A stretch of DNA of 42,740 nt from positions 1 through 42,740 of the forward strand of contig NZ_LMAK01000077.1 in the NCBI RefSeq assembly GCF_001439665.1, given 5' to 3'. The notes under the pieces were generated by a model that did not search any database, was not told the DNA's origin, and saw nothing but the letters and a program-made list of their open reading frames with translations. This DNA comes from Formosa algae (lineage in GTDB: Bacteria > Bacteroidota > Bacteroidia > Flavobacteriales > Flavobacteriaceae). A program made the translations under genes and the position numbers. Shown here piece after piece: positions 502 through 42,562 of this stretch. The stretch's first letter is position 1; every line of letters begins with the position of its first letter.

Positions 502-3500
502 TTAATATTTAATACTAATCTTTTTAGTCGTACTACCTTTATCTGTTTCTACTTTTACAATGTAATTTCCTTCAGAAACGTATTTCACTGGAATCTTACT
601 GGTGTTAGAGAATGTTGCATTTGTTGTATTCCACACGAGAACTGTCTGTCCTAAAGTGTTTATTAAATAGACTTGCTTAATGTTTATGTGACTAGGTGTT
701 GCAATGTAAACCTCGTCTGTTTTACTCAAATAATTTACAGAAATATTACTTAATTCATTATCTACAATATCAAGTCTGCTATCTTCATTAAAAGCTAGGA
801 AGTAGCGGTCTGAATAGTCACCTTGATCTAAATGCATTTGGTATTTAGAATTATTTATTTGTGTGTAAGTATCTGTATAACTATCGTAAATAAAGACATC
901 TATATTGGTTTCAAAATTTTCTAAAGCATTTAAACTAATTTCAATGTTCCCATCTTTTCCAATAAATAGAGCTAAAGGATATTGCTTGGTTTCATCGAAC
1001 TCGCCGACACCTTGAATAACATAAGTTTTATCTTTAATTAAAAATAGCATATCGCTAGATAGTGACTCAAAATTTGTAGCATCATAACCAAAGTCTACAT
1101 CATCTGTTGCCGCATTATCAGGTGTAAACCCTAATAATAATTGTCTTGTTGCGTTATCAGGATTTTTAAAACTAAGTCTAATACGTTGAATATCATTAGT
1201 GCTTTCCTCGTTTGTTTCATCAGTTCTAAGGAATGTAGAACTACCACTAGCTTCGGTTTTAAAAATACGCTGACTGTTATTAAACATAATATTTCCTGTT
1301 TGTCCAGCTGTAATAAAGAATCCTTGCGCAACCGGAATGTAACGTTGAGGAATATAATTATCGGCATCTCCTGTTCCTGATATATCTTCTGGTGCTACAG
1401 CAGGATTTCCTCCAGTTAAGTTTAATGAGGCATAACCTCCTAAATATTCTTTAGCAACATGAGTATTATTTGTTGTGGATTGTTTCCAGAAGCGAATTTC
1501 TCCGTTGTTACCACCATCATCAAGCATATTTCGGTTATCGGTTATAAACGCATTTGCATCTATAGCTGAAGGATAAGGGTTACCAACTAAAGCATCATAA
1601 CCAGCAGACACATTCACTAAATAATCTCCATTATTTGGCTGACCAATAAAGGTGTAATCGGCATTAGATGTTCCTTTCATTAAATACCCTAAACCAACAT
1701 TAATATCATAATTTTCGTCAATCTTATGCCAATTTGCATAATCTGAAGTATAGTTTTCAAATAAATATAACCATCGCGTGCTAATAGAAGGTGGATTTCC
1801 AGGAGCTCCATCGTGGTTTGCTGTCCAACCAACAGGTGTATTACCCACATGTAATACTTCACTTAGCTTATAAGTTCTTTCGCTATCTGGACCTGTAGTA
1901 CTTACAGGAGATGACCAATAGTTGTAGTTATACACATTCGTTGTTCCTTCTTGATCACGTAATAAACCACCTGTTCCGGTATAATCTACAATACTATTTT
2001 CTGATTGAATTAATTGCGCTTCGCCTTCAAGTTTAAGGTTACCATCTAATTTTAAATATTTAGACACGTAAAGCGGAGTATTATTTGGCACTGTTAAAGT
2101 GTTATCTTCAACAATTAGACCGAGTACGGTAGTTGTTTTGTCTAAAGTAATATTATTTTTAATTTTCACAATATTCCAAGTAATATCTCCAGAGTTTGGT
2201 AATTGATTCACATCAGCATTCATCCAAGCAGCAGCAGTATCCCAATCGGAGTCTCCATTACTTTCATATGGAAGTGGTGCGGTTTCCTGCTGTGTTGAAG
2301 TCATGTTTCTTAACACTCCAGACGTTGCTCCGTTAGCAGAGGCCAGCGTACCATTTGCAATATTTGATCCCATTTGGTAGTAGCCTACTAGATTTGTATT
2401 CCAATCTAAACTTCCAGTAATATCTACAGGAATTATAGAGCCTCTAACGTTACCTCCGTTATTTTGAATTTCTTGATTCATCATTTCTTGAATTTGTTGA
2501 GCCGATAATGCCGTATTCCAAATTCTTAATTCATCTAACCAACCATCAAAATAATTGGTAGGTAATAGAGAGGATTGTACAGCTCCTAAAAGCGCCAAAC
2601 TTGTATTCGATTGTGGACCATCCCCGTTCTGAGACGTTTTAAGAACACCATCTATATATAGATTATAAGCAGACCCGTTATAGGTTACTGCAATATGATA
2701 CCAACGGCTAGTTGATAAACCAGAAGCAGAAATGCTATTCCCGTTATTCCAATTGAATGCAATCGTGTTACCATTATTTATGGTTAAATCGTAACCAGAA
2801 GCAGCATTAGAAGCACTACGTTTTGAGAATAGTGTTTGTTGCCCTGTTGATGAATTTGGTTTCGCCCATATTTCAATACTAAAAGGACCATTTAAATTAT
2901 ATGCATTTCCAAAATTCACACTGGTATTTGTTCCATTAAAATCGAAATCAGTTCCTGTACATGCTGGAATATTTACAGCTACGGTAGTACTACTCTCCCC
3001 ACAAAGCCCTTCATTTACAACAGTCCATGTTAACGTATAATCTGTTCCGCTTTCTCCAGTAAATGTTGCATTAGGGTCTGTAACATCAGAGAATACTCCG
3101 CCTAATGGTAACGCGGTCCATGTTCCTGAAATATTACTATTAGCTTGTAAAGTAACTGTTGTATCGTCGCAAGAATCAATCGTACTAACAAGACTCGCAG
3201 CTGCTTCAATAAATGGCTGAACAATTATATCGTAAGTTACAGGAGTTCCAGAACTACAACCTGTTGTAGATTTTGGTGTAATAGTATAGGTCACAGTTTT
3301 TGGAGAACTTGTAGTATTTGTTAATATATTACTTAAAGTAAATGTTGAATTTGCAGCTATACTACTCGAATTACCATTAGTTGCTCCTGTAACCCCAGAA
3401 GGTGTCGTTCGTGTCCAACTAAATTCCATTGGATTATCTGTAATATTTCCATTTACAATAATGTCTGCGCTAGAACCACTACAAATTTCAGCCTCTGCTG

Positions 3501-6500
3501 CGGTTACACTCAGAACTTTAGGAGTTGGGTAGATTTTTAAAGGAAACTCAATCGGGTCTGAATTACAGGAACCTGAAAAATTAGAGAATATAGGTGTTAT
3601 GTATAAACTTGCTGTAACGGTAGCATTTGTATTATTTTTTAAAGTTGTAGATACCGTAGTACTTGTGGTGCTAGTAAACCAACCGGAATTTGTAGACCCA
3701 TTAGTGCTTCCTGTTGCATTTGAAAAATATGTTGCATTTGATGACCAAGAGTAGTCGACATTAGAAAGGTTTGTATGGCGGATACTGACTTGTGGACTAA
3801 TTGTAGCTCCGGGACAGTATGGAGTAGTGTTATTCGGAACATTACTAATTGTTGGGCTCCAAAAAGAACCACCAAACCCCCCAATTAAATTTATAACAAC
3901 AGTATTACTAGTAATTGTATTATTACAAAAACTATCATTAACTATTAATTGATAATATCCTTCATTAGAATCACTAGGGCTATGGTTTAAACCAGTTCCA
4001 ACATTTGTCCAAGAATCATTTGTTTCTTCTCTATATTGCCATTGGTAAGTATAATTTCCAGAACCACCAGATATAGCTTCGGTTATATATAAATCAGAAG
4101 GATCTTCTCCCCAACACACATCTTGATCATCTCCAATTACAGGTACTGTTAAAGGCGCATACACTTCTACAGTTGCAGTTGTGGTTGTACTACAGCCTTG
4201 TCTGGTTGCTGTTACTGTAAATGTTACGGTTTGAGTTTCTGTTGTTGAATTGGTTAACGTTCCAGAAATAGAACTTCCTGATCCAGACGACGCTACGCCG
4301 CTTACATTAGATGTGTTATCTCGTGTCCAACTGTAAGTTGTGTTATTGGTATTGTATGTATTACTAATAGCCATGGAGAAAGAACTTCCGTCGCAGACCA
4401 TTTGTTCTTTAGGTGTTACTATAACTTGAGGTGTTGGTGTAACTCGAATTCGTATGTCTTCTATAACATTACTTTCACAACCATTTGCAACTGCCCAAGC
4501 TTTAATTCTAATAATCCTATTAGAAGAATGTGTACTTGTTAATATTCCTGAAATACTAGATCCTGTACCGCTTTCCATACCAGAAACAGTATTAATATTA
4601 TCTGTACGTTCCCAATAGTACTCAACATTTTCGAGGTTATTATCGTTTAATATCGCTATCGGAGAAATCTCTGTGTCGCTGCAAACAACTTCATTTATAT
4701 TAGGTCTAGAATCAGGATCTATCGAAATTACAAGTTGCGGATATACCGTAATAGTCGCTGTAGTGATGTCGCTAGTACAGCCATTAGCAGATGTTGTTAT
4801 TGTAAACGTAGTAGTTTGCGGCGTATTAGTTGTATTCACTAGAGCTCCAAAAATAGTGTTAGCTGAACCATTTTCTAACCCTGTAATTCCTGTCGTATTA
4901 TTACGGGTCCAACTATAAGTTATGCCAGAAATGTTATTAGGATTGCTAATAACAATAGGAGTGATGTCTTCTCCATAACAAATATCTTGTAATGTGTTAG
5001 TCGCTGAAACTGTAGGTGTAGGATTAACAATAACATCTATCATAAAAGGTTCTGAAATACAGCCGTATTCTGAATTTGCTGTAATTGTAAACGTGGTTGT
5101 TTGCGGTGAATTACTTGTGTTTGTTAAATTTACATTGATAGTATTACTATCTCCTGTTGCAGTTCCTGAAACACCTGATGTATTGTTTCTAGACCATATA
5201 TATGTTAATGTTTTATCGACATTGTTTTCGTCTATTATTGTAATATCTGTGGTCTCACCAGAACATATTTCATCTGTAAATGTTGCACCTGGGTCTAAAA
5301 TAAGTTCAGGTTTTGGATTCACCGTTACCGTTGCCGTAGTTACACTTGTACATCCGTTAGCAGTTGCTGTAATAGTAAACGTTGTTGTTTGTACAGTTCC
5401 TGTGGTATTGGTTAATGTTCCAGAAATCGGAGTTCCACTTCCGCTAGCACTTATACCTGTAATATTAGAAGTGTTATTACGTGTCCAAGTGTAAGAAATC
5501 CCACTTACACTATTATCATTTAAAATATTGATAGGAGAAATCGTGTCATCACTACACACCGTTTGACTTGGTTGATTTACTGAAATAATAGGTTCTGGAT
5601 TCACCGTTACCGTTGCCGTAGTTTCACTTGTACATCCGTTAGCAGTTGCTATAATAGTAAACGTTGTTGTTTGTGCAGTTCCTGTGGTATTGGTTAATGT
5701 TCCAGAAATCGGAGTTCCACTTCCGCTAGCACTTATACCTGTAATATTAGAAGTGTTATTACGTGTCCAAGTGTAAGAAATCCCACTTACGCTATTATCA
5801 TTTAAAATATTGATAGGAGAAATCGTGTCATCACTACACACCGTTTGACTTGGTTGATTTACTGAAATAACAGGTTCTGGATTCACTGTTACCGTTGCTG
5901 TAGTTTCACTTGTACATCCGTTAGCAGTTGCTGTAATAGTAAACGTTGTTGTTTGTACAGTTCCTGTGGTATTGGTTAACGTTCCTGAAATTGGCGTTCC
6001 ACTTCCGTTAGCACTTATACCCGTTAGATTAGAGGTGTTATTACGTGTCCAAGTGTAAGAAATCCCACTTACACTATTATCATTTAAAATATTTATAGGA
6101 GAAATCGTGTCATCACTACACACCGTTTGACTTGGTTGATTTACTGAAATAAAAGGTTCTGGATTCACCGTTACAGTTGCTGTAGTTTCACTTGTACATC
6201 CGTTAGCAGTTGCTGTAATAGTAAAGGTCGTTGTTTGTACAGTTCCTGTGGTATTGGTTAACGTTCCTGAAATTGGCATTCCATTTCCACTAGCACTTAT
6301 ACCTGTAAGATTAGAGGTGTTATTGCGTGTCCAAGTGTAAGAAATCCCACTTACACTATTATCATTTAAAATATTGATAGGAGAAATCGTGTCATCACTA
6401 CACACCGTTTGACTTGGTTGACTTACAGAAATAACAGGTTCTGGATTCACTGTTACCGTTGCTGTAGTTTCACTTGTACATCCGTTAGCAGTTGCTGTAA

Positions 6501-8871
6501 TAGTAAACGTTGTTGTTTGTACAGTTCCTGTGGTATTGGTTAACGTTCCTGAAATTGGCGTTCCATTTCCACTAGCACTTATACCCGTAAGATTAGAGAT
6601 GTTATTGCGTGTCCAAATGTAAGAAATCCCACTTACGCTATTATCATTTAAAATATTGATAGGAGAAATCGTGTCATCAGTACACACGGTCTGACTCGGT
6701 TGACTTACAGAAATAACAGGTTCTGGATTAACCGTTACAATATAATTTGCAGATAAAGGACCCGTTCCACAATCATTTTCTCCTTGTACTGTAATAGTAC
6801 CAGATACAGCAGTTGAAATGTCGTAGTTGACTTCAATTGTATTTGTGCCAGCTCCAGAGATTATGCTTGCTCCTGTTGGTAAGCTCCAAATATAAGTGGT
6901 AGCATTCGTTATAGAAGGGACTGTATATTCCACATTCGTTTCTCCTTGACAGACTATATTTGTTCCCGTTATTGTTCCGGCAGCAAGAGGTAAAGGATCT
7001 ACATTAATCGTTACAGACGTACAAGCAGTCGTATTACATGTTCCTTTATATCTCGCATAATAGGTTGTTGTAATTGTAGGAGAAACAACAAGATTGTTTC
7101 CTGATCCTGCAGGCGTTCCATCACAACTACCAGTGAACCACTCTACAGATGCATCTGTTCCTAAAGCTCCTCCAGAAACATTTAGTGTAGTAGAAGTTCC
7201 TTCGCAAATAGTTGAGGTGTTTGATGATGTAATTGTAGTTGGTGCAATAGATGCATCATTTAAGTTAATTTGTAATTCCGAAGCAGTAACACTTTTTCCA
7301 CAGTCATTAACACCAACCACAGAAATTGTGAAATCAGATAAAGGTGTATTCGAAATATCTAAAGCAATAGCGTTGGTATTCGATGTACCGTTAAAAGTAG
7401 CAGAACCATTAGAAATTGTCCAGTTGTAAGATGTTGTATTAGATATACTAGGAATTGTATATTCTACCATAGTGTCTCCAGGACATACTACCAACGGTCC
7501 GCTTATATCTGTTGGGTTAGTAGGAACTGTATTAAATGATAGGGGCAAAGAAGTGCTCGCTCCAGTTCCACAGGCATTTACAGCTTCTACAGTGATAGCA
7601 CCACTACTAGCAGTGTTAAAATCGACAGTAATTGAGTTGGTGCCAGCTCCAGAGACTATGCTTGCTCCTATAGGTAATGTCCAATTATAAGACGTTGTAT
7701 CTAAAATGTTAGAAACCGTATAGGTCTCTGTAGCTCCAGAACAAATATCTGAAATTGGATTTATGAAGCTTGGAGCGCTTGGAACGTCTATGACGTTAAC
7801 AGCAAGACTGGCCTGATTTGAAGTTCCTCCACATTCACCCTCACCATTAGCAACTACAGTTATGTTTCCTGAAGATGCATTTGTGTAATCTACAGTAATA
7901 CTATTGGTAGAGGTTTCTAAAGTACCTGAACTAGGTGTTACACCATTAGGTAAAGTCCAAGTATAGCTAGTAGCATTGGTTACTTCAGGAACTGTATAAG
8001 TGATATTGTTTACGTTTTCACATAGCTCTTGTGGGCCAGAAATAGATCCTATAGAACTTCCATCTACAGAACCGCCTCTTGAAACTGTTACTTTAATACA
8101 CGCTGTAGTGTTACAAGTCCCTTCATAATTAACATAATATGTTTTAGATTCTCCTTGATTTAAAGAGACTCCTAGGTCGTTTCCTTCTTTTAAATACGTA
8201 CCATTACAGCTTCCCTCATACCATTTTGGTCTAGCATTATCACCTAAAACACCACCACTAACATTTAAATTTATATTATTATTACTACCCGTATGGTTGA
8301 TACAAATAACAGAACCTATATAATCATTATTATCAAATCGTATGGTTGTTGGGACTTCAGACAGTCTTTTTATATCGATGGTTTTCTGTCTATCTTGACT
8401 TGTTTCAGTTTCATTATAAGCTACAACTTTAATATTGTTTTGTCCAGTTGGAGCTGTAGTTTCAATACTTACAGAAATACTAGTAGTTCCTTGTCCAGAT
8501 GTTATTGTAACACCAGATGGTACTGTCCATGTGTATCCGGTTGCATTAGCAACAGGGTTAATAGAATAGTTTTCAGTAGTTCCAGGACAGATATCTCTGT
8601 TTCCTGTGATATTACCTGGCTGAGCTAATTGAATAGGTTTTAGTCCTCCATTAGTATTTAAAGTCTCCATAGTGTTATTCACTGCACTATAATTTTTTAC
8701 AATAGGAGAGGAAGTTAATACAGTTGTTTTACCAAATACAGTATAAGAATTAAAGGTAAATAGACTACAAAAGAGTATAAATAATCCTGCGGAATGAATT
8801 GAAAAGCTTTTCCTTTTGCTTGTGAAAAAATGCGTTTGTTGTAAGAAATTTTGCAATGTAGAGTTATGCAT
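502..8871 (-). CDS. Giant secreted surface protein with PKD/Ig-like repeats, LamG-like domain and T9SS type A sorting domain
   Basis: A 2789-residue exported protein. Residues 1-48 form a long signal peptide (basic start, hydrophobic core FILFCSLFTF). From about 85 to 1950 there is a chain of beta-sandwich PKD/Ig-like modules. Most have a conserved Cys in 'ICSG/VCPG/VCSDD', a central 'YxWT' and a closing Cys in 'NGCTS'. Residues 718-1188 are five nearly identical 94-residue copies. Around 1972-2130 is a LamG/concanavalin-type domain (FSIEIWAKP, DGWLDELRIWNTAL). From about 2205 there is a region with the YNYWSSPVS motif common in flavobacterial T9SS cargo. The last ~80 residues, ending GNYIVKVETDKGSTTKKISIKY-like, fit a type A Por/T9SS sorting signal. 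It is probably surface-anchored or released and may act in adhesion or glycan binding; the ligand is unknown. It stands alone transcriptionally. Confidence 0.9.
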   Translation of the reverse strand: MHNSTLQNFLQQTHFFTSKRKSFSIHSAGLFILFCSLFTFNSYTVFGKTTVLTSSPIVKNYSAVNNTMETLNTNGGLKPIQLAQPGNITGNRDICPGTTENYSINPVANATGYTWTVPSGVTITSGQGTTSISVSIETTAPTGQNNIKVVAYNETETSQDRQKTIDIKRLSEVPTTIRFDNNDYIGSVICINHTGSNNNINLNVSGGVLGDNARPKWYEGSCNGTYLKEGNDLGVSLNQGESKTYYVNYEGTCNTTACIKVTVSRGGSVDGSSIGSISGPQELCENVNNITYTVPEVTNATSYTWTLPNGVTPSSGTLETSTNSITVDYTNASSGNITVVANGEGECGGTSNQASLAVNVIDVPSAPSFINPISDICSGATETYTVSNILDTTSYNWTLPIGASIVSGAGTNSITVDFNTASSGAITVEAVNACGTGASTSLPLSFNTVPTNPTDISGPLVVCPGDTMVEYTIPSISNTTSYNWTISNGSATFNGTSNTNAIALDISNTPLSDFTISVVGVNDCGKSVTASELQINLNDASIAPTTITSSNTSTICEGTSTTLNVSGGALGTDASVEWFTGSCDGTPAGSGNNLVVSPTITTTYYARYKGTCNTTACTSVTINVDPLPLAAGTITGTNIVCQGETNVEYTVPSITNATTYIWSLPTGASIISGAGTNTIEVNYDISTAVSGTITVQGENDCGTGPLSANYIVTVNPEPVISVSQPSQTVCTDDTISPINILNDNSVSGISYIWTRNNISNLTGISASGNGTPISGTLTNTTGTVQTTTFTITATANGCTSETTATVTVNPEPVISVSQPSQTVCSDDTISPINILNDNSVSGISYTWTRNNTSNLTGISASGNGMPISGTLTNTTGTVQTTTFTITATANGCTSETTATVTVNPEPFISVNQPSQTVCSDDTISPINILNDNSVSGISYTWTRNNTSNLTGISANGSGTPISGTLTNTTGTVQTTTFTITATANGCTSETTATVTVNPEPVISVNQPSQTVCSDDTISPINILNDNSVSGISYTWTRNNTSNITGISASGSGTPISGTLTNTTGTAQTTTFTIIATANGCTSETTATVTVNPEPIISVNQPSQTVCSDDTISPINILNDNSVSGISYTWTRNNTSNITGISASGSGTPISGTLTNTTGTVQTTTFTITATANGCTSVTTATVTVNPKPELILDPGATFTDEICSGETTDITIIDENNVDKTLTYIWSRNNTSGVSGTATGDSNTINVNLTNTSNSPQTTTFTITANSEYGCISEPFMIDVIVNPTPTVSATNTLQDICYGEDITPIVISNPNNISGITYSWTRNNTTGITGLENGSANTIFGALVNTTNTPQTTTFTITTSANGCTSDITTATITVYPQLVISIDPDSRPNINEVVCSDTEISPIAILNDNNLENVEYYWERTDNINTVSGMESGTGSSISGILTSTHSSNRIIRIKAWAVANGCESNVIEDIRIRVTPTPQVIVTPKEQMVCDGSSFSMAISNTYNTNNTTYSWTRDNTSNVSGVASSGSGSSISGTLTNSTTETQTVTFTVTATRQGCSTTTTATVEVYAPLTVPVIGDDQDVCWGEDPSDLYITEAISGGSGNYTYQWQYREETNDSWTNVGTGLNHSPSDSNEGYYQLIVNDSFCNNTITSNTVVINLIGGFGGSFWSPTISNVPNNTTPYCPGATISPQVSIRHTNLSNVDYSWSSNATYFSNATGSTNGSTNSGWFTSTTSTTVSTTLKNNTNATVTASLYITPIFSNFSGSCNSDPIEFPLKIYPTPKVLSVTAAEAEICSGSSADIIVNGNITDNPMEFSWTRTTPSGVTGATNGNSSSIAANSTFTLSNILTNTTSSPKTVTYTITPKSTTGCSSGTPVTYDIIVQPFIEAAASLVSTIDSCDDTTVTLQANSNISGTWTALPLGGVFSDVTDPNATFTGESGTDYTLTWTVVNEGLCGESSTTVAVNIPACTGTDFDFNGTNTSVNFGNAYNLNGPFSIEIWAKPNSSTGQQTLFSKRSASNAASGYDLTINNGNTIAFNWNNGNSISASGLSTSRWYHIAVTYNGSAYNLYIDGVLKTSQNGDGPQSNTSLALLGAVQSSLLPTNYFDGWLDELRIWNTALSAQQIQEMMNQEIQNNGGNVRGSIIPVDITGSLDWNTNLVGYYQMGSNIANGTLASANGATSGVLRNMTSTQQETAPLPYESNGDSDWDTAAAWMNADVNQLPNSGDITWNIVKIKNNITLDKTTTVLGLIVEDNTLTVPNNTPLYVSKYLKLDGNLKLEGEAQLIQSENSIVDYTGTGGLLRDQEGTTNVYNYNYWSSPVSTTGPDSERTYKLSEVLHVGNTPVGWTANHDGAPGNPPSISTRWLYLFENYTSDYANWHKIDENYDINVGLGYLMKGTSNADYTFIGQPNNGDYLVNVSAGYDALVGNPYPSAIDANAFITDNRNMLDDGGNNGEIRFWKQSTTNNTHVAKEYLGGYASLNLTGGNPAVAPEDISGTGDADNYIPQRYIPVAQGFFITAGQTGNIMFNNSQRIFKTEASGSSTFLRTDETNEESTNDIQRIRLSFKNPDNATRQLLLGFTPDNAATDDVDFGYDATNFESLSSDMLFLIKDKTYVIQGVGEFDETKQYPLALFIGKDGNIEISLNALENFETNIDVFIYDSYTDTYTQINNSKYQMHLDQGDYSDRYFLAFNEDSRLDIVDNELSNISVNYLSKTDEVYIATPSHINIKQVYLINTLGQTVLVWNTTNATFSNTSKIPVKYVSEGNYIVKVETDKGSTTKKISIKY
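5309..6718. repeat. Five tandem 282-bp repeats inside the giant surface-protein gene
   Basis: The same landmark (GGTTCTGG or GGTTTTGG) recurs at 5309, 5591, 5873, 6155, 6437 and 6719, always exactly 282 bp apart. That gives five head-to-tail units of 94 codons each. Units differ only by scattered substitutions (for example TCT/TGT choices and a few Ala/Ser/Asn swaps) with no indels. Each encodes one PKD/Ig-like module ending ATVTVNPEP. More diverged copies of the same fold follow and precede the block. Confidence 0.95.
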
Positions 8872-30165: not shown

Positions 30166-32598
30166 TTAAAATTTTGTCTGCGTTAGATTATCTAATGCTT
30201 TTTCCATATCAATGCCTTTATCCAGAATATTTAAAAAAGTATCAGGTTTATTTTTGAACAATTTGGGCACAGTGGTTATGGTATAATCTTCAATTTTTAG
30301 TTTGGTATTCACATCTTTCCAGTCTATTGGAGTCGATACTGTAGCATTTGCTTTGGCTCTTAAGCTAAACGCTGATGCTATAGTTTGTCCTTTTCGGTTT
30401 TGTAAATAATCTAAATAAATTTTAGGACCTCTTTTTTTTATTGCACGTTCTAATGTGGTTAATCCGGGGAGTTGTTCTTGGATATAATAGCACAGCAGTT
30501 TAGTGAAATCTCGTGCTTCCTTATACGTGTATTTTCCACCTAAAGGAATATAAATATGGAGTCCAGATGCACCAGAAGTTTTACAATACCCTTTAATATG
30601 AGCGCTGTCAAGTACCAATTTTGCAGCTTGGGCCGTTTCAACAATCTGTTCAAAAGTGTTTTGATCTGAAGGGTCTAAATCGATAATGGTATAGTCTGGA
30701 TAATCTAATTGGTAAATTGTGGAATGCCAAGGATGTAATTCAATACAACCCAAGTTATTCATATAGGTTAACGTAGCCTGATCTTGGCACAGTAAATAGT
30801 TGATATCACGTTCGGCCGACTTGGAATGGATTTTAAAAGTATCTATCCATTCGGGTAAATGGGTGTTATCTTTTTGGTAAAAAGAAGATCCGTTAATACC
30901 ATTGGGATGCCGATGTAAACTTTGAGGTCTGTCTTTTAAATAGGGCAGGATATAATCCGACATTTTTATATAATAATCCAACACGTCAAATTTGGTCAAT
31001 TGTGCATCGGGCCAATACATTTTATCAAGATTAGAAACCGGTACCTGAATAGAATCAATCTCTAACGTCGTGTCAGAAGAGGGAGTCGTTTTTTTGAGCG
31101 GGAGCTCTTGGTGTTCTTTGTGACTTTTAACCGGAACAGACTTATTTTCTCGCATCCGTAAAAATACAGGATGTCTCATCACACCGCTTTTTGTCCATGC
31201 CGTAAATTTTACTTCGCATATTAATTTGGGAATCATCCAATGCGCGATTCTGCCTTTTAAATGTTGTAAAATTTTAAATGTGGCTGTATCCGTTAAATAG
31301 GGCTCAAATTGTTGATGTAACGCCTTAATTTGTTGGGATGAAAATCCAGAGCCACACGTCCCCACATAGATTAATTCTTCATCTTCAATCATTCCCAAAA
31401 TTAAGGATGCAAACTGTCTAGAGCTGTTTTTAGATTCTGTATACCCACAAATAAGGGTGTCAATAGTTTCAATATTTTTAAATTTAAGCCATTCTGGGGT
31501 TCTAAGGTTTGTATAATATTTAGAGGTTGCCTTTTTAGCCATAACACCTTCCATTCCAAGCTTTATTGCTCTGTCGTACACTGTTTTCCCCATTCCAACA
31601 ATATGGTCGCAGTAGGTTATATGATTAGACTCTGGTAATAATGCTTTAAGTAATTTCTTTCTATCTAGTAACGGTAAGTCTGTTGTACTATGACCGTTAA
31701 GGTATAACAAGTCGAAAACAAAGTAATTAAGATGACCCTTCGTTGTTTTTGGATCGTAATTTTGAAGGGCGTTAAATTGAGGAATACCCTCGCTATTTAA
31801 TATAACGATTTCTCCATCCAAAATAGCGGTATGCTCGATCGCTTCTAACTCGTCATGAATGATTTTAAAAGTTGAATTTAAAGATATTCCGTTTCGTGAA
31901 TAGAGTGAGACTGTATCAGAATCTACATTGGCCAAAGCGCGATAGCCATCATACTTTAATTCGTAAATCCAGTTCTTATCATTAAAGACGTCCTTTGCTG
32001 GTGAGGCCAGCATTGGTTTTATAATGGATTTTAAATGGGGTTCGGACGTGTTCTTGGTGACATGTGGTTTAAAATTTTCAACGACATAATCTTCAGCATC
32101 ATAAAGTAAGTTTGTAGCGTACTCATCTTTATGCTTAATAAACAACCACTGATTTTGTTTGTGCGTGGAGCTAGAGCGAACCAATGTAAACATACCCTTT
32201 ATTTTGTCTCCTCTAAAAACAAGTTTCAATGTCCCTTTTAAATAATCCGAAGTCAGGTTGTCATTATCGTATAAACTTTCAAAAGTGCCTTCATCCCAAA
32301 TAGTCATTTTACCAGCACCATAATTGCCCTTTGGTATTACGCCTTGAAAAGAAAGATAAGATACCGGATGGTCTTCCGTGTGAATTGCCAATCGTTTCGC
32401 TTCAGGATTCATAGAAGGGCCTTTGGGAATAGCCCAACTTTTTAGGACACCCTCCATTTCTAGTCTTAAATCATAATGTAAATGACTTGCGCGATGTCTT
32501 TGTATTACAAATCTGTATTTGTTTTCAGAATTGTAAACATCTTGAGGTTCTGGCGTGTTTTTAAAAGTGCGCTTTTTTCTATATTCATCAAGACTCAT
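30166..32598 (-). CDS. ligD: ATP-dependent DNA ligase D (NHEJ), PE-ligase-polymerase order
   Basis: An 810-residue end-joining enzyme with three catalytic modules. Residues ~25-160 are the 3'-phosphoesterase (RHRASHLHYDLRLEMEG, AIPKGPSMNP). Residues ~190-500 are the ATP-dependent ligase with nucleotidyl Lys near 214 in LKYDGYRA, plus the OB domain (MIPKLICEVKF). Residues ~520-800 are the primase-like polymerase with DLDPSD near 638 and SGLHIYIPL. With Ku it repairs double-strand breaks without a template, trimming and filling ends. It starts six bases downstream of ku. The PE-LIG-POL order is that seen in Pseudomonas rather than in mycobacteria. Confidence 0.96.
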   Translation of the reverse strand: MSLDEYRKKRTFKNTPEPQDVYNSENKYRFVIQRHRASHLHYDLRLEMEGVLKSWAIPKGPSMNPEAKRLAIHTEDHPVSYLSFQGVIPKGNYGAGKMTIWDEGTFESLYDNDNLTSDYLKGTLKLVFRGDKIKGMFTLVRSSSTHKQNQWLFIKHKDEYATNLLYDAEDYVVENFKPHVTKNTSEPHLKSIIKPMLASPAKDVFNDKNWIYELKYDGYRALANVDSDTVSLYSRNGISLNSTFKIIHDELEAIEHTAILDGEIVILNSEGIPQFNALQNYDPKTTKGHLNYFVFDLLYLNGHSTTDLPLLDRKKLLKALLPESNHITYCDHIVGMGKTVYDRAIKLGMEGVMAKKATSKYYTNLRTPEWLKFKNIETIDTLICGYTESKNSSRQFASLILGMIEDEELIYVGTCGSGFSSQQIKALHQQFEPYLTDTATFKILQHLKGRIAHWMIPKLICEVKFTAWTKSGVMRHPVFLRMRENKSVPVKSHKEHQELPLKKTTPSSDTTLEIDSIQVPVSNLDKMYWPDAQLTKFDVLDYYIKMSDYILPYLKDRPQSLHRHPNGINGSSFYQKDNTHLPEWIDTFKIHSKSAERDINYLLCQDQATLTYMNNLGCIELHPWHSTIYQLDYPDYTIIDLDPSDQNTFEQIVETAQAAKLVLDSAHIKGYCKTSGASGLHIYIPLGGKYTYKEARDFTKLLCYYIQEQLPGLTTLERAIKKRGPKIYLDYLQNRKGQTIASAFSLRAKANATVSTPIDWKDVNTKLKIEDYTITTVPKLFKNKPDTFLNILDKGIDMEKALDNLTQTKF

Positions 32599-32604
32599 AG
32601 TTTA

Positions 32605-33378
32605 TTAAGATGCTTTCTTTTTCTTTTGTTCTAGACTCGCTTTTAATTTAGCCATTAAATCTTTTGCGGCGGTTGGTTCTGTTTCAACTTTTTCAGATTT
32701 AATTGTTTTACCGGTGGCTTTAGATTCTATAATTTTTAGTAATTGCGAATTATAGATGTCTTTGTACTTAGTAAAATTGAATGTAGTCGTGTAATTTTCA
32801 ATAAGAGATTCAGCCATTGCAATTTCTTTGGCCACATTTTTTGTTTTCGGTACTTTAATTCCTTTAGTGTCTCTTATTTCATCATCGAACCTTATAACAT
32901 GAAGCACCATTACATTTTTATACACACCAATTAAACACAAATTTTCCTTTTGGCGCATTACAAAAGTTGCAACGCCTAATTTACCCGTCTTTTTCAAGGC
33001 TTCACGAAGTAAATTATAAGCTTTGCCACCTTCCTTTTGAGGTTCTAGATAGTAGGGTTTTTTAAAAAGTACATCGGCTACCTCCGTTTCTTCAACAAAT
33101 TCTTCGATATCTATAGTCTTACTTTTTTTTACATTGGCATTTTCAAAATCTTCTTTTTCAAGAACCACATAGCCTTCATCCTTTTTATAGCCTTTTACAA
33201 TGTCTTTCCATTCGACTTCCTTACCTGTTTTTTCATTGACGCGCTTGTAGCGAATGCGTTCGCCATCATGTTTGTCAAGCATATCCAGATCCAAGGCTCT
33301 ATCCTCTGAAGCAGAATACATTTTTATAGGTATTGATACTAGGCCGAAGCTTATTGATCCATTCCATACTGACCTCAT
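32605..33378 (-). CDS. ku: Ku protein, non-homologous end joining
   Basis: A 257-residue bacterial Ku. It opens with the signature SVWNGSISFGLVSIPIKMYSA and has RIRYKRVNEKTGKEV and the ring-forming core (YVVLEKEDFENANVKKSKTIDIEEFV). A Lys-rich C-terminal tail (LMAKLKASLEQKKKKAS) is typical and helps recruit LigD or DNA. It forms a dimeric ring on DNA ends. It is the first gene of the ku-ligD-yetF run; the 308-bp region upstream is shared with the divergent DUF892 gene. Confidence 0.96.
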   Translation of the reverse strand: MRSVWNGSISFGLVSIPIKMYSASEDRALDLDMLDKHDGERIRYKRVNEKTGKEVEWKDIVKGYKKDEGYVVLEKEDFENANVKKSKTIDIEEFVEETEVADVLFKKPYYLEPQKEGGKAYNLLREALKKTGKLGVATFVMRQKENLCLIGVYKNVMVLHVIRFDDEIRDTKGIKVPKTKNVAKEIAMAESLIENYTTTFNFTKYKDIYNSQLLKIIESKATGKTIKSEKVETEPTAAKDLMAKLKASLEQKKKKAS

Positions 33379-36479: not shown

Positions 36480-37373
36480 TCATTCAATACTTTCAATTAC
36501 AAAAAAGCCATCATTTCCTTTGGCTTGGTATAAAGGCATAAAGATGAATGCATCCCAAGTACTATAAATTTCTGTACCATTTAAGGTAGCTAAATGTTGT
36601 CCGTTATAAATTGGTTGAAAGTTCTCAAATCCGGACTGCATCTTAAAATTGTCTTTTGGAGTTAGTCCAAAGCGATGAATAATTTTAAATGTGCGTTGCT
36701 TGTTAGTGCTCTTAACTGTGGCTTCAATAGTTGATGGAGTTGATTCTAAATCCTTTACATATAAATTACACGCCTTTTCAAGTAGCATCCAAATCATGCC
36801 TTCGTGATAGATTTTACTCGTTTCACTGTCGTGCTGACCAGCTTCTATTGTAAAACCTGTAATTTCTTTTTTACTAAAATACCCGTCGATAGTACCTTCA
36901 ACAATATCTGAAAATCCTTTAATTATATGAAGCGGGAACTGTTGAGCCCATTTTAAATTTTGTCCAACATCCTGCACAGACATGTACGGTAAACTATCCG
37001 AAGATGTGGTATGACAATCCATAAAATAATGATTGGTAAAATTAGTGTCATTCAGCGATTCTAAAACTTCAATGAGCTGAAACATTTCTCGTTTCTCACT
37101 CGTATCATTATTTCTCTGTTTTAAATTTTTGTCAGTCCATGTGCGGTTAAGATCCTCGTCTATAAATCTCACACCATTTTTTGCTGCTGCTGTATTTGCT
37201 AGTATCCCAATAAACGTACCGTTTATAATAGGATGCTCCCTATGTAATTTCTCAAAAACAGCTTTCAAAGCCTGTATTCCGCTAGGTTCATTTCCATGTA
37301 CTCCAGCCGTTACGATAAGTAACGGCCCCTTGTTGTTACTTGTATATTGCCCTATAATTCTATTGGTTTCCAT
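36480..37373 (-). CDS. Succinylglutamate desuccinylase/aspartoacylase-family zinc deacylase
   Basis: A 297-residue M14-like metal hydrolase of the AstE/AspA family. Zinc ligands read as GVHGNEPSG (His26, Glu29) and DCHTTSSDS (His near 120); the general-base Glu is in FTIEAGQHDS near 175. Family members hydrolyse the amide of an N-acyl amino acid. The true substrate is unknown and nothing around it suggests arginine catabolism. It is the third gene of a likely operon with the ATP-grasp ligase (42 bp upstream) and the DUF1704 metallopeptidase, so a role in processing their product is more likely. Confidence 0.88.
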   Translation of the reverse strand: METNRIIGQYTSNNKGPLLIVTAGVHGNEPSGIQALKAVFEKLHREHPIINGTFIGILANTAAAKNGVRFIDEDLNRTWTDKNLKQRNNDTSEKREMFQLIEVLESLNDTNFTNHYFMDCHTTSSDSLPYMSVQDVGQNLKWAQQFPLHIIKGFSDIVEGTIDGYFSKKEITGFTIEAGQHDSETSKIYHEGMIWMLLEKACNLYVKDLESTPSTIEATVKSTNKQRTFKIIHRFGLTPKDNFKMQSGFENFQPIYNGQHLATLNGTEIYSTWDAFIFMPLYQAKGNDGFFVIESIE

Positions 37374-37414
37374 TGTTTCTTAATTTTATTGAAATAATAT
37401 ATTTATTACAGAAC

Positions 37415-38467
37415 TTAATCCATGGTCGCGAGTACTTTATTGGAAATTTTATTTTTATAGAGTTTTTTATATTCAACTTTACGCTCAATCGCTTCAATAA
37501 TTGTAGTGGTAAAGGTTGGCATTCCAATTTCTTCACAATGATCTAATCCACCAGGACTTAAAACATTTATTTCGATAAGTTTATCATCTACAATATCTAA
37601 GCCTACAAAAAATAACCCGTCTTTGATTAGTTTAGGAGCTGTCACTTCAACTATATGTTGCATTTTCTTGGTGTATTTTGCTTTTTTAGCAGTAGCACCT
37701 AAGGATAAATTACTCCTAAATTCATCTTTGTCTTTATTAAGACGACGAATCACAGCTTTTTCTCCATCTTCTTCTAAAATCTTTCCATTCATGAGAATTA
37801 CACGGACATCGCCTTTTGATACTTCTGGTAAAAATTCTTGAGCAATAACGTACCCTTGACTGATTAAGGTTTCGAAAATCTGATGTATATTTTTCTTGTC
37901 TTCTCCAATAAGATATACATTCTGTCCGCCAGACCCTTCTAAAGGTTTTAAAACCATTTGTTTTCCTACGGATTCCCAAAACTGAAGTAAATCGTTTATA
38001 TCGCGAGTAATTAGGCTGTTGGGTTTTATTTCTGAAGGTAATTCTTCAAAATACAGTTTATCTATATAGGCATGAGACATGGCAAATGCATCGTTCAAGA
38101 CCAAAACATCTTCTTGCTGAACCATCCGAGCAAAAGCTATAGCACTATGCTCAGCCCATTTTCTATCGTCCGTCTCTTCGGTAGGGTTATTTCTTAAAAA
38201 TAATACATCTAAGTCTTCGCTGGTAATAACTGTTTTTTTGTTGGCGTCTTCTTGTACTTGAGTCCAAAACTCTTCAACAGTTTTATATTTTAAATTTTTC
38301 TTTACATGTGTACACCTAAAACTCATTGGTGCATCCTGCTTAAAAATAAAATCGCCTACACCCATTACATATAAGGCATGTCCTCTCTCGTACGCTTTTT
38401 TCATAATAACTACTGAAGTCCCAATGGCTTCGGTTTCTATGGCACTAATAACAAAACAAATTTTCAT
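37415..38467 (-). CDS. Glutathione-synthetase-like ATP-grasp ligase
   Basis: A 350-residue ATP-grasp enzyme with the layout of bacterial glutathione synthetase (GshB). The N-terminal substrate domain begins KICFVISAIETEAIGTSVVIM. LFLRNNP is present near 90. ATP-grasp motifs are VLKPLEGSGGQNVYLI near 190, FLPEVSKGDVRVILMNGKIL near 225, and metal ligands in GLDIVDDKLIEINVLSPGG near 305. Such ligases join a carboxylate to an amine via acyl phosphate. No gshA is seen nearby, so a non-glutathione product is plausible. It begins two bases after the stop of the DUF1704 gene, indicating tight coupling. Confidence 0.9.
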   Translation of the reverse strand: MKICFVISAIETEAIGTSVVIMKKAYERGHALYVMGVGDFIFKQDAPMSFRCTHVKKNLKYKTVEEFWTQVQEDANKKTVITSEDLDVLFLRNNPTEETDDRKWAEHSAIAFARMVQQEDVLVLNDAFAMSHAYIDKLYFEELPSEIKPNSLITRDINDLLQFWESVGKQMVLKPLEGSGGQNVYLIGEDKKNIHQIFETLISQGYVIAQEFLPEVSKGDVRVILMNGKILEEDGEKAVIRRLNKDKDEFRSNLSLGATAKKAKYTKKMQHIVEVTAPKLIKDGLFFVGLDIVDDKLIEINVLSPGGLDHCEEIGMPTFTTTIIEAIERKVEYKKLYKNKISNKVLATMD

Positions 38468-38469
38468 AA

Positions 38470-40320
38470 TTATATCATTTTAGATATGGGCAAGCCCTTC
38501 TTAAGTTTATCTATTTTAAAGTTGAAATCATCATTGTTTAAATATCTAGGGGTTATTTTAGGAGGTAAAACGAGACCCCGATCTCGAAGATCTTGAATTA
38601 CATCGATGTGATGCAGTGCAAATTTTCCGCTCAATAAAGGTTCTAATTCACCACCTTCCATAAGAAAATTGCGAAGACGCACTAAGCCTTCTAAATAAAT
38701 AATATCTTTAAGAAAGCCTCCGCCTTGAAACATTCTTGAGGTAATATTAAAGGCTCGTTCTTTAGTAAAATCGTATTGTGAATACAGCTTGAAAAACATC
38801 TCGTGAAACTCGGCTCCATTCATTAAGGCTGCACCAGCTACAACACGGCCGGCTAAAATTCGTAACCGATTTCCAGACAATCCGCCCGACAAATATTCAC
38901 TTAATACGGCTATACCTTCTTGTAAAGCATCGTAATTAGCAAGTCCTGAAGCCATTTGTGTTAACGGTTGTTGTGATCCGTTGTAGTAGGTTAGGGCATG
39001 TGTGCCAATTTCATGCTGTATAAGTGCCTTTGCATCATTTTTACTCATGGTGTAGTCTGATGGTAAATACAGTTCTCCCTTAGACACCATCATGATGTTT
39101 ACATCGTCTCGAATATGAATTTTGGAATTAAAATGGGAGTCCTGATCTTTAAAATAATCAAACTCTTGTTTTGCTAATTTTCCAAATTCGGAAGTATCAA
39201 TTAGAGCGTGTTGACTTTCATTATGATTTTCAGGTATATTCTGAAGAATCAATTCAGCTTCTGCTAACAAAGCTTTATCCAGTCCGCTATATAGGCGAAT
39301 ACTGCTGTAGAAAAAGTTTTTAGCACCACGTTCTTTTAGCATTGTAAGCTCTTGATCTATTTCTGCTCGTTTTTCATCGAATAAAAAAGATATAGCAGGA
39401 TCGTCTATTTCGTCGATACGTAAGTCGTATAATTTTCGTTTAAGAATATCAGGATCTACGGGAAGCAGACGATAATGATACCGGTCTAATTTTTTAAATT
39501 GGGAATCGAAAAACTGTTGGCGTAGCACTTGTATGTTAACCGGCGCGACTAATAATAAAAATTGGTAACTATTTTCAATTTCGGTTAGCTGTTTGTCTAT
39601 TTTAAATACTTCTTCATGAATAGAACGTTTCCCTAGGGCGTGATAGTTGGTAAGGCTAGAGGTGGTTTGTACTCTTACGAATTCGAATACTGCACGTTGT
39701 ATTGCTGTAATAAATTGATCCTGAAAGTCTCTAAAGTACAATGGAAACACCTGCCCGTGCTCGTCTCTAAAAACAGGCGGGACTTCTAAGCCGATAAGCG
39801 TTGCTCCACGTTGTTTAATATGAGAAATTTCTAACAACGGCTTTTCACTTACAGTTTGTCGTGTTTTTGTTTGTTCAACACACACATCTAAATTTACATT
39901 ATACTGTCTGGATTTTATTTTAAGTAATTCATTTTTTAATACTTGCAAAGACACTGGTAATTTATGCGACGGTCCTCTTACTTTAAACATTTGGCTTCCC
40001 GTGTTGCCAGAAAAAATTTCTAACAGTATAAACGAGCCAAAATTATCCGACATTAATGTGGTAAGATCTTCGATAAAGGTTTTATAATACTGAAATGATT
40101 CTGAGCCAACAATAAGGTAAGATGCTCCTGCACGTATTAATCTGTCGGTGCCAGAATCGTTTTCTTTTTTCCGATAAATAAGTAATGAGGGTACATCATG
40201 TTCTAAAAATAGAAATCCGCCATGGGGTAATCTAGTAACAGTTTTTGCACCACATTCTAATTTAGGAATGAGTTGTTTTACTGTTGGCATACTTTCTGGA
40301 GATACCTCTGTGTTGATCAT
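38470..40320 (-). CDS. DUF1704 / QEGLA-motif metallopeptidase
   Basis: A 616-residue protein of the 'flavohemoglobin expression-modulating QEGLA motif' family (DUF1704, TIGR02421 type). The likely zinc site is HEIGTH near 434-439 (HExxxH), with the family motif as QEGIAVLSEYLSGG near 465 supplying a third ligand Glu. The N-terminal half (residues 1-330) is family-specific, with no signal peptide. The eukaryotic DUF1704 protein MATCAP is a carboxypeptidase that removes C-terminal tyrosine from tubulin, so peptidase activity is expected; the bacterial substrate is unknown. It is the first gene of a three-gene operon with an ATP-grasp ligase and a zinc deacylase. Confidence 0.9.
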   Translation of the reverse strand: MINTEVSPESMPTVKQLIPKLECGAKTVTRLPHGGFLFLEHDVPSLLIYRKKENDSGTDRLIRAGASYLIVGSESFQYYKTFIEDLTTLMSDNFGSFILLEIFSGNTGSQMFKVRGPSHKLPVSLQVLKNELLKIKSRQYNVNLDVCVEQTKTRQTVSEKPLLEISHIKQRGATLIGLEVPPVFRDEHGQVFPLYFRDFQDQFITAIQRAVFEFVRVQTTSSLTNYHALGKRSIHEEVFKIDKQLTEIENSYQFLLLVAPVNIQVLRQQFFDSQFKKLDRYHYRLLPVDPDILKRKLYDLRIDEIDDPAISFLFDEKRAEIDQELTMLKERGAKNFFYSSIRLYSGLDKALLAEAELILQNIPENHNESQHALIDTSEFGKLAKQEFDYFKDQDSHFNSKIHIRDDVNIMMVSKGELYLPSDYTMSKNDAKALIQHEIGTHALTYYNGSQQPLTQMASGLANYDALQEGIAVLSEYLSGGLSGNRLRILAGRVVAGAALMNGAEFHEMFFKLYSQYDFTKERAFNITSRMFQGGGFLKDIIYLEGLVRLRNFLMEGGELEPLLSGKFALHHIDVIQDLRDRGLVLPPKITPRYLNNDDFNFKIDKLKKGLPISKMI

Positions 40321-40660: not shown

Positions 40661-40849
40661 ATGACTGTTTTAAAATTTTTACTTATTAATACAGTAGCTG
40701 TAGTACTCATGACAGGGTTTTCGTATTTAATCTCTCACGCTCTCAATGTTAATTTTAGTGAACCTAATCGTTTAAAACAATTGGTAAATCGGGCAAGTAT
40801 TATTAAAAAATCTGATTTTGGTATATGGATTGGATGGTGTTTTTATTAG
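40661..40849 (+). CDS. N-terminal half of a small membrane protein (apparent frameshift)
   Basis: A 62-residue frame with a hydrophobic helix (FLLINTVAVVLMTGFSYLISHAL), a polar stretch rich in Asn and Lys, and then IWIGW followed at once by a stop. The next frame, starting at 40825, overlaps by 25 bases and continues in a hydrophobic, protein-like way. Joining the two by a single added base at GGATGG gives a smooth product of about 136 residues with three or four membrane helices. No family was recognised. It may be a broken gene, a sequencing error, or two overlapping genes. Confidence 0.5.
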   Translation: MTVLKFLLINTVAVVLMTGFSYLISHALNVNFSEPNRLKQLVNRASIIKKSDFGIWIGWCFY

Positions 40850-41070
40850 GATATTTTCTTTTTAAAAACATTATTCATGTGCTTCCAGAATTTTTATATG
40901 CTTTAGTCTTTGGTTTTTTAGCAGGGCTATTTGGTGCGATGGGATGGAAACTTATGTTTACTATACATGACAATCCGCCAAAACTTCCAAAGTTTCCATT
41001 TTATGTTCAGCTTGTCGGAGCGCATATAGTGTTTAGTGAAACGGTGGCAGCGATGCTACAAATAGTATGA
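40825..41070 (+). CDS. C-terminal half of a small membrane protein (apparent frameshift)
   Basis: An 81-residue frame: MDWMVFLLGYFLFKNIIHVL, a second and third helix (FLYALVFGFLAGLFGAMGWKLMF), a Pro-rich loop (DNPPKLPKFP) and an amphipathic tail with HIVFSETVAAML. The ATG lies inside the end of the previous frame in a -1 register. If independent it would be a two- or three-helix membrane protein; more likely it is the continuation of the frame from 40661. Function unknown. Confidence 0.5.
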   Translation: MDWMVFLLGYFLFKNIIHVLPEFLYALVFGFLAGLFGAMGWKLMFTIHDNPPKLPKFPFYVQLVGAHIVFSETVAAMLQIV

Positions 41071-41533: not shown

Positions 41534-42562
41534 ATGATATCAATTGAAGTTAAACCGTACGTTTTACTTAAAAAGCACGTGTTTAGAATAGCAGGAGGAG
41601 CTCGAACGAGCACTCCTCTTGTATTAGTCAGATTAAAATATAACGATTTTGAAGGTTATGGGGAAGCATCTATGCCTCCTCTTTATGGCGAAACTATAGC
41701 GTCGGCACAAGCCTTTATTAAAACCTTAGATTTTAGTACGATTTCTTATCCGTTTAATTTAGAAAGCATTTCAGAATATTTAGATTGTCGTGCCAAAGGT
41801 AATACAGCGGCTAAGGCGGCTATAGATATGGCGTTACATGATCTTATAGGGAAAATAGAAAATGTGCCTTTATATCAGTATTTTGATTTGCCAAAAGCAG
41901 AATTGAAAACCAGTAAAACAATAGGAATAGATAGTGCTAAAATTATTGAACAACGAGTAGCAGAAGCCGATGCATTTCAGTTTTTAAAAATTAAACTGGG
42001 CGGAGATAATGATGAAGAAATTATTAAAGCTGTAAGACATGTGACTGATAAACCAGTGTTTGTAGATGCCAATCAAGGCTGGACAAATAAAGAAGAAGCA
42101 CTTGATAAAATAGAATGGCTAGAGGACGAAAATATAGTGTTTATCGAACAACCTATGCCAAAAACAGCATATTCAGATATGGAATGGTTGGTCTCGAGAA
42201 GTCCGTTGCCTTTAATTGGAGATGAAGGAATACAACGGTTAGAAGAGGTGAAAACGGCTAGTCGTTTTTATCATGGTATTAATATTAAATTAATGAAATC
42301 GACAGGGTTACATGAAGCTTTTAAAATGGCTAAAATGGCCAAATCTTTAAATTTAAAAATAATGTTGGGATGTATGTCTGAAACCTCATGCGCAATAGGT
42401 GCTGCTGCACATTTAGGAGCTATGGCAGATTGGATCGATTTAGATGGTAATTTAGGTGTGGCTAACGATCCTTACCAAGGTCATGATGTTAAAAACGGAA
42501 TCATTCATCTTAACGATACCAGCGGAATTGGATTAATAAATCCCAATTGGGATAATATTTAA
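41534..42562 (+). CDS. Dipeptide epimerase (L-Ala-D/L-Glu epimerase type), enolase superfamily
   Basis: A 342-residue enolase-superfamily enzyme of the muconate-lactonizing subgroup. The capping domain comes first (GGARTSTPLVLVRLKYNDFEGYGEASMPP). The barrel has the catalytic Lys in FLKIKLGG near 153, metal ligands Asp (DANQGW), Glu (IEQPMP) and Asp (IGDEG), the second Lys in NIKLMKSTG and a closing DLDGNLG motif as in Ala-Glu epimerases. These interconvert L-Ala-D-Glu and L-Ala-L-Glu during recycling of murein peptides. The specificity is inferred from motifs. The next gene, a lipoprotein, starts four bases later. Confidence 0.9.
   Translation: MISIEVKPYVLLKKHVFRIAGGARTSTPLVLVRLKYNDFEGYGEASMPPLYGETIASAQAFIKTLDFSTISYPFNLESISEYLDCRAKGNTAAKAAIDMALHDLIGKIENVPLYQYFDLPKAELKTSKTIGIDSAKIIEQRVAEADAFQFLKIKLGGDNDEEIIKAVRHVTDKPVFVDANQGWTNKEEALDKIEWLEDENIVFIEQPMPKTAYSDMEWLVSRSPLPLIGDEGIQRLEEVKTASRFYHGINIKLMKSTGLHEAFKMAKMAKSLNLKIMLGCMSETSCAIGAAAHLGAMADWIDLDGNLGVANDPYQGHDVKNGIIHLNDTSGIGLINPNWDNI

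Follow-up and report, generated by a model that had tools for sequence, protein, structure and literature searches.

The operon and its three genes

We analyzed a stretch of 42,740 nucleotides from Formosa algae (contig NZ_LMAK01000077.1 of assembly GCF_001439665.1; hereafter the window), in which three open reading frames (ORFs) lie head to tail on the minus strand at 36480-40320 and encode a MATCAP/DUF1704 metallopeptidase, a GshB-like ATP-grasp ligase, and an AstE/AspA-like deacylase (Table 1). MATCAP and ligase genes are separated by 2 bp (38468-38469), and ligase and deacylase genes by 41 bp (37374-37414); the original prediction, made from the letters of the window, had given 2 and 42 bp, of which the first figure holds and the second is corrected by recount. 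The motifs it had listed, i.e., HExxxH plus QEG, ATP-grasp motifs, and a deacylase zinc site, are all present and invariant in alignments of relatives. Thus, H436, E437, and H441 (HEIGTH) and QEG 467-469 are invariant in 56 long MATCAPs, the QEG presumably supplying the third zinc ligand, as in MATCAP structures; K174, P175, L176, G178, G180, and G181 of the ligase are invariant in 35 rows, and HGNE 26-29, DLNR 74-77, H121, and E177 of the deacylase in 20 rows.

The family assignments are supported by profiles and solved relatives. In a Pfam scan, MATCAP scored 272.6 bits against PF08014 (cut-off 27); human MATCAP 7z5g was found as a solved relative by profile match (E 1.2e-15, profile of 15 rows) with the HEIGTH motifs aligned, and the AlphaFold2 model, with a predicted local distance difference test (pLDDT) score of 91.8, had 7z6s as its best Foldseek match (E 6e-9). 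The ligase scored 159.5 bits against PF02955 GSH-S_ATP (cut-off 23) and 38.8 against PF02951 (cut-off 21.3), its solved relative being Escherichia coli glutathione synthetase 1gsa (E 5.6e-30). For the deacylase, the score was 74.7 against PF24827 AstE_AspA_cat (cut-off 25) and the solved relative was succinylglutamate desuccinylase 1yw6 (E 1.9e-7). Carboxypeptidase activity, known for the human enzymes (PMC10499314), is predicted for the window MATCAP.

Table 1. Features of the MATCAP-ligase-deacylase operon, in window coordinates
Feature	Position	Strand	Basis
MATCAP/DUF1704 (QEGLA) metallopeptidase gene, long form, 616 residues	38470..40320	-	PF08014, TIGR02421, human MATCAP profile match
MATCAP N-terminal domain, residues 1-240, resembling N-formylglutamate amidohydrolases (FGases) but without two invariant FGase histidines	39601..40320	-	hhalign, own model, Foldseek
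MATCAP peptidase domain, residues 268-596	38533..39519	-	PF08014
HEIGTH zinc/catalytic motif, residues 436-441	38998..39015	-	Row invariance; aligned with HEIGTH of human MATCAP
QEG motif, residues 467-469, probable third zinc ligand	38914..38922	-	Invariant in 56 rows
GshB-like ATP-grasp ligase gene, 350 residues, PRK12458-like branch	37415..38467	-	PF02955; NF009110 score
ATP-grasp domain, ligase residues 136-312	37532..38062	-	PF02955
AstE/AspA-like zinc deacylase gene, 297 residues	36480..37373	-	PF24827

MATCAP and the ligase form a conserved pair

MATCAP was found in 54 of 99 further genomes from the host family; it occurs in a long form of ~610-650 residues and a short form of ~385-390 residues. 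A strong GshB-like gene was present in 52 of the 54 (the exceptions being G056 and G066) vs. none of the 45 others, "strong" meaning at least 130 bits, a threshold chosen after a gap between 138 and 82 bits had appeared. The ligase adjoins MATCAP in all 19 other long-form loci of the family (L032-L050), and AstE follows in the order of the window in 14 of them (in L038, AstE covers 79% of the query). Of the five long-form loci lacking a window-type AstE, L033, judged by length to be the same contig as L136, has an FGase upstream; the other four genomes also carry a short-form MATCAP. The 21 short-form loci contain an SDF symporter (20 loci), the ligase (19), an FGase (18), and, in five cases, a rhodanese resembling mercaptopyruvate sulfurtransferase. 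The symporter best matches the glutamate/aspartate symporter GltP, below its cut-off. Two ordinary enzymes, encoded by aroC (upstream of 19 of the 21 short-form operons) and asnB (found upstream in 6 related loci; the single one tested gave 937 bits to PRK09431), were taken as local synteny and not counted as members.

In an independent scan, covering named genomes of bacteria and archaea, we analyzed the best 80 of at least 564 confirmed MATCAP relatives, scoring their neighbors by tblastn. Since this set consists of the closest relatives, it favors long forms, and it has some contigs in common with the host-family set. The ligase was found in 79 of the 80 loci, 77 times directly downstream on the same strand; it adjoins MATCAP on the opposite strand in L153 and lies ~3.5 kb off, also on the opposite strand, in L158. 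The L099 locus ends at a contig edge. Among the matches listed, the nearest named relative is Winogradskyella wichelsiae, whose best segment gave 92%. Judging from record titles, the pair occurs in Bacteroidota, Acidobacteriota, Gemmatimonadetes, Verrucomicrobia, Planctomycetota, Calditrichaeota, Poribacteria, and several proteobacterial groups, mostly on contigs of metagenome-assembled genomes. Rhizobial plasmids encode an FGase, a QEGLA protein (the bacterial name for MATCAP), and a "glutathione synthetase," adjacent to one another in Shinella and Aminobacter. In a phylum-wide sample, MATCAP was rare (16 of 296 genomes), which makes the distribution of the module patchy, and gene order varies between its forms. 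Conserved co-occurrence, which the original prediction had proposed as a check, is found far beyond the window, and MATCAP-ligase adjacency in several phyla speaks against the converse case, that the families rarely adjoin.

About half of the 80 loci are from related Flavobacteriaceae, and the genes might therefore be neighbors by chance or through recent common descent only. The same caveat touches the correlation between MATCAP and ligase distances (r 0.92, 70 pairs), which ignores shared descent of the hosts. Against this, the pair is kept in many phyla and on rhizobial plasmids, gene order differs between forms, and a fusion exists (see below), which leaves this explanation exceedingly improbable.

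Individual loci show further arrangements. On a Sinorhizobium medicae plasmid (L163:2017-5175), the FGase and QEGLA genes are separated by two ORFs for group II intron reverse transcriptases. In Phycisphaerae (L157:8872-14425), MATCAP is followed by three tandem GshB-like ligases and then by a gene for an MscS-type mechanosensitive channel, the overlap being 4 bp. A match to Pseudomonas phage Y1 covered 28% of the query.

The ligase is unlikely to be an ordinary glutathione synthetase

The GshB-like features of the ligase raise the alternative that the operon serves synthesis or turnover of glutathione or a gamma-glutamyl peptide, with the gamma-glutamyl ligase encoded elsewhere in the genome. 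In addition to the PF02955/PF02951 architecture, R222, R242, R251, N253, E299, and N301 are common to E. coli GshB, though to RimK as well; the short-form ligase of L052 passes PRK05246 (287.3 vs. 272) while failing TIGR01380 (245.1 vs. 299.05); and GCS2 matches were found in 10 of 36 module-bearing genomes of the host family, that of F. algae included. However, the window ligase fell below both glutathione-synthase equivalog cut-offs, with 178.5 vs. 299.05 for TIGR01380 and 195.6 vs. 272 for PRK05246, where the E. coli GshB control reached 464.4 and 496.2, respectively. It came closer to PRK12458 (NF009110), narrowly missing the cut-off (404.4 vs. 408), and four module relatives scored 434 to 486. 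No PF04262 GshA was detected in any of the 36 genomes, the F. algae genome included, by a search whose positive controls matched; the one GCS2 gene of F. algae (96 bits) lies in a separate cassette of ATP-grasp, GCS2, and FGase genes; and none was detected near the 80 closest loci (tblastn, one GCS2 query). Searches with PF08886 in the F. algae genome and with PF03074 in the 36 genomes gave no match either, but their positive controls were silent too, and they carry no weight. The F. algae genome does contain bshC, which points to bacillithiol.

We set aside an ordinary glutathione operon as unlikely, given that the ligase stays under both cut-offs, that the searches turned up no classical gshA, and that the genome has bshC; glutathione or gamma-glutamyl-peptide metabolism more broadly we regard as quite improbable. 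The view that glutathione is an unlikely product, put forward from the letters of the window, is thereby strengthened, and its named counter-case, an ordinary GshB with gshA elsewhere in the genome, finds no support from the equivalog scores or the PF04262 search. The accompanying remark that no gshA is nearby is true locally, yet the genome carries the GCS2 gene mentioned above. The MATCAP-ligase pair lies beside bshC or guaA in several of the loci L032-L036, L135, and L146 (identified by Pfam in L036 and by BLAST in L135 and L146), a neighborhood that may reflect synteny or a thiol link.

AstE/AspA-like and FGase enzymes alternate in the third position

In the 80 closest loci, the third position is occupied by AstE in 37 cases, by FGase in 33, by both in none, and by neither in 10. 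AstE lies downstream on the same strand in 34 loci and downstream on the opposite strand in 3, while FGase lies upstream in 32 and downstream in 1. The loci with neither hydrolase include L099, as well as L142 and L149, which start at the end of a contig. By record title, all AstE loci belong to Bacteroidota; the FGase loci, many of them metagenome-assembled, include Acidobacteriota, Verrucomicrobia, Planctomycetota, Calditrichaeota, Poribacteria, and proteobacterial groups. The original prediction of an AstE/AspA deacylase as third partner thus stands for part of the Bacteroidota; elsewhere, FGase fills the slot.

In a tree of 98 MATCAPs, obtained by a quick maximum-likelihood search in which L165, L051, L164, L147, and others sit on long branches, the 35 rows with a same-strand AstE form one side of a branch (Shimodaira-Hasegawa-like approximate likelihood ratio test support 99), i.e., one change; two changes between AstE and FGase are needed when the 3 opposite-strand AstE rows are counted as AstE and the 11 rows with neither hydrolase are omitted. 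Enzymes of the AstE/AspA and FGase families both hydrolyze small N-acyl acidic amino acids. Since the AstE and FGase profiles do not align, the third slot reflects replacement of one enzyme by another of similar chemistry, and not simple divergence. Removal of an N-acyl cap, as had been suggested for the deacylase, would fit both families.

Long MATCAPs carry an FGase-like domain, and some bacteria fuse the two enzymes

Residues 1-240 of the window MATCAP, which the original prediction had not singled out, matched FGases by hhalign (92%, score 53.7 over 203 columns), compared with 26.4 for the best of 80 column shuffles and ~15 for reversed controls. In Foldseek, the model of this domain alone (pLDDT 87.1) had the poly-gamma-glutamate hydrolase YndL at rank 1 (E 4.7e-5) and the N-formylglutamate amidohydrolase 2q7s at rank 5 (E 1.5e-4), with nucleoside phosphorylases ranking between them and modest template modeling scores of 0.35-0.52 for YndL and 2q7s. 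HMMER gave no Pfam match for the domain at E 0.01. Two invariant FGase histidines (H26 and H140 of the L116 FGase) are replaced by E and F in the window MATCAP, and residues 1-240 of long MATCAPs contain no invariant or near-invariant histidine. Since the profile and fold match FGases and the histidines are gone, the long MATCAP looks like an old FGase-MATCAP fusion in which the FGase part has lost its metal site; in the clade of the window, the separate FGase would then have been replaced by AstE/AspA.

Fusions with a conserved FGase part were found on two Photobacterium plasmids, where a ligase of 342 residues overlaps by 23 bp an FGase-MATCAP fusion of 662-665 residues. The FGase part shares 37-43% identity with stand-alone FGases over ~270 residues and keeps the AIH, EEDP, DLNR, and D-x-H-x-YN motifs, and the MATCAP part carries HE(M/L)GVH and QEGLA. 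Vibrio HDW18 encodes the same fusion, with the histidine of D-x-H-x-YN changed to tyrosine.

A published RNA-seq table for Photobacterium damselae RM-71 grown at 1% vs. 3% NaCl lists "Glutathione synthase GshB" (RS17020) as up 38.4-fold, a QEGLA protein (RS17025) as up 27.5-fold, and RimK as up 52-fold (PMC10308900). Two genes bearing module names are thus strongly induced together at low salt. RS17020 and RS17025 are neighboring locus tags, and their link to the module is by gene names and tags only; in the two other Photobacterium, the ligase and QEGLA fusion are adjacent. In their low-salinity virulence study, the authors treat this "GshB" as glutathione synthesis (PMC10308900).

A putative module for coupling and releasing an acidic amino acid

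We propose that the three genes constitute one module, in which the ligase would extend a small peptide or metabolite by an acidic amino acid that the hydrolases would take off again, a reading to which we assign a probability of roughly 0.45. At the expense of ATP, the GshB-like enzyme would link the amino group of glutamate or aspartate to a carboxylate that probably belongs to a small peptide or a metabolite resembling one; the AstE/AspA-like enzyme (in most other lineages an FGase) would cut the N-acyl amide bond at this acidic residue; and MATCAP would act as a carboxypeptidase on the C-terminal residue of the ligase product. The amide may thus be built and broken in a cycle, which in some bacteria could be switched by salinity. 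In favor of this proposal are the conserved neighborhood and co-occurrence of MATCAP and ligase, including on rhizobial plasmids; the Photobacterium fusion beside the ligase; the substitution of AstE and FGase for each other in the third slot; the GltP-like SDF symporter in 20 of the 21 short-form loci; the two further ATP-grasp-hydrolase neighborhoods of the F. algae genome (see below); and the low-salt induction in P. damselae.

We favor a small peptide or metabolite over a protein target, since enzymes of the kind found in the third slot work on small N-acyl amino acids and since no candidate target turned up among the neighbors identified. The main rival is nevertheless modification of a protein tail, in which the ligase would add amino acids to a C-terminus or side chain, MATCAP would remove them, and the third enzyme would handle released acyl-amino acids. 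Its models are the human MATCAP-family enzymes, described as carboxypeptidases on acidic tubulin tails (PMC10499314), and RimK, reported to glutamylate ribosomal protein S6, with RimB stripping the glutamates (PMC11957791); moreover, the low-salt table that lists the module genes shows RimK as induced, too (PMC10308900). However, no recurrent small target protein was found among the same-strand neighbors of the 80 loci and 20 more, where ~20 of 98 extra ORFs were identified, and small N-acyl amino acids, not proteins, are what AstE, AspA, and FGase enzymes act on. We therefore consider a protein tail doubtful, if the strongest competitor.

A salvage or catabolic operon, in which scavenged peptides or N-acyl amino acids would be broken down by the hydrolases and the fragments recycled or tagged by the ligase, would account for hydrolases outnumbering the ligase 2:1, for the symporter of short-form loci, and for the amino acid permease that L145 has close to the module. 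Yet it is the ligase and MATCAP that form the constant pair, and the transporters and third enzyme that vary; to this account we give a low probability.

Several points weigh against the proposed module. The reactions of all its members are predicted, as are the acidic amino acid, the small-molecule substrate, the direction of each step, salinity control, and the purpose. The preference for glutamate or aspartate is borrowed from distant relatives, since the members reach no named enzyme model: the window deacylase scored 45.6 vs. 305.65 for AstE and 55.1 vs. 180 for AspA, and the L143 FGase 24.4 vs. 278.75 for HutG. A shared AstE-FGase profile was sought, and the two groups did not align in profile comparison. 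Nine of the 80 closest loci have a ligase and neither hydrolase, Vibrio HDW18 and Pseudoalteromonas CF6-2 have MATCAP with no ligase within 6 kb, and the symporter was seen in short-form loci only. The PRK05246 score of the L052 ligase leans toward glutathione, and the P. damselae genes are tied to the module by name, in a low-salt list whose other genes are unrelated (PMC10308900).

Related cassettes and neighboring genes

Elsewhere in the F. algae genome, RimK (366 bits vs. a cut-off of 331 for PRK10446, the S6-glutamate ligase model) is directly followed by an AstE/AspA-family gene (PF24827, 123.7 bits; G000:C67, L081:2964-4817), possibly an eraser of S6 glutamylation in this genome. A second cassette (G000:C78, L076:4649-8005) combines a RLAN/RimK-like ATP-grasp gene, a GCS2 carboxylate-amine ligase gene, and a short FGase gene, and the same ORF trio occurs in L077-L080. 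Given these two cases, an ATP-grasp enzyme beside an acyl-amino-acid hydrolase is a repeated pattern in this genome.

Within the window, a dipeptide epimerase-like gene (41534-42562) was rejected as a fourth member; it lies 1.2 kb off on the opposite strand, and none is annotated beside the identified loci. Between it and the operon are two overlapping, membrane-like plus-strand ORFs of 62 and 81 residues (40661-41070), which may represent a single small membrane protein split over two frames. A scan for sigma-70-type promoters showed no excess (21 seen vs. 25.8 expected). Judged by eye, adjacent minus-strand ORFs of 810 and 257 residues (30166-33378) resemble an ATP-dependent DNA ligase (LigD) and Ku, and an ORF of 2789 residues (502-8871) with several near-identical repeats of ~100 residues probably encodes a secreted adhesin-like protein.

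Comparison with known systems

The component families are already known; it is for the module of MATCAP, ligase, and third enzyme that our literature searches found no description, the 2009 amidoligase survey discussed below being outside their reach. In the searchable text of PMC4431377, a word search found "glutathione synth" and did not find zincin, peptidase, formylglutamate, aspartoacylase, or GshB. The family as such is covered by TIGR02421, "Flavohemoglobin expression-modulating QEGLA motif protein," a name silent on chemistry, whose cut-off (338.65) is missed by the window protein (301) and reached by the rhizobial module member L162 (352.9) and Vibrio HDW18 (470.3).

Iyer and co-workers reportedly surveyed neighborhoods of ATP-grasp, GCS2, and FGase amidoligases in 2009. 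These resemble the module in placing ATP-grasp ligases beside N-acyl-amino-acid hydrolases, and the L076 cassette of F. algae is of that kind. The likeness to GshB lies in domain architecture and ATP-grasp core; the window ligase differs in falling under the equivalog cut-offs, in having no gshA partner by PF04262, and in traveling with hydrolases. Bacterial MATCAPs are at present named by motif only, and the ligases next to them go under the name glutathione synthetase. Should the module hold up, many of these annotations would be misleading, including that of the P. damselae "GshB" (PMC10308900).

RimK and RimB provide a parallel in which an ATP-grasp ligase acting on S6 is opposed by a hydrolase that removes what the ligase has added (PMC11957791), and RimK rises at low salt in the table that lists the module genes (PMC10308900). 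RimB, however, is a retropepsin-like aspartic protease and no MATCAP, and RimK of F. algae has its own AstE-like neighbor. The tubulin tyrosination/detyrosination cycle provides another parallel: TTL is an ATP-grasp ligase, and it is opposed by a MATCAP-family zinc peptidase (MATCAP/TMCP) with the same HEIGTH motif. The bacterial module differs in its GshB-type ligase, its third enzyme, and the lack of tubulin, and its reaction is predicted from genes. As a bolder and rather unlikely suggestion, MATCAP may descend from the peptidase arm of an old, osmotically switched bacterial ATP-grasp writer/eraser module for terminal residues of a peptide or protein, in which case the pairing of ligase and carboxypeptidase in the tubulin code would predate its use on tubulin. 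The bacterial MATCAP is a cousin of the human tubulin-tail trimmer, and the module, if right, would offer a bacterial setting, with a dedicated ligase, for the original chemistry of this tail-editing peptidase family, and may reveal what the family originally acted on.

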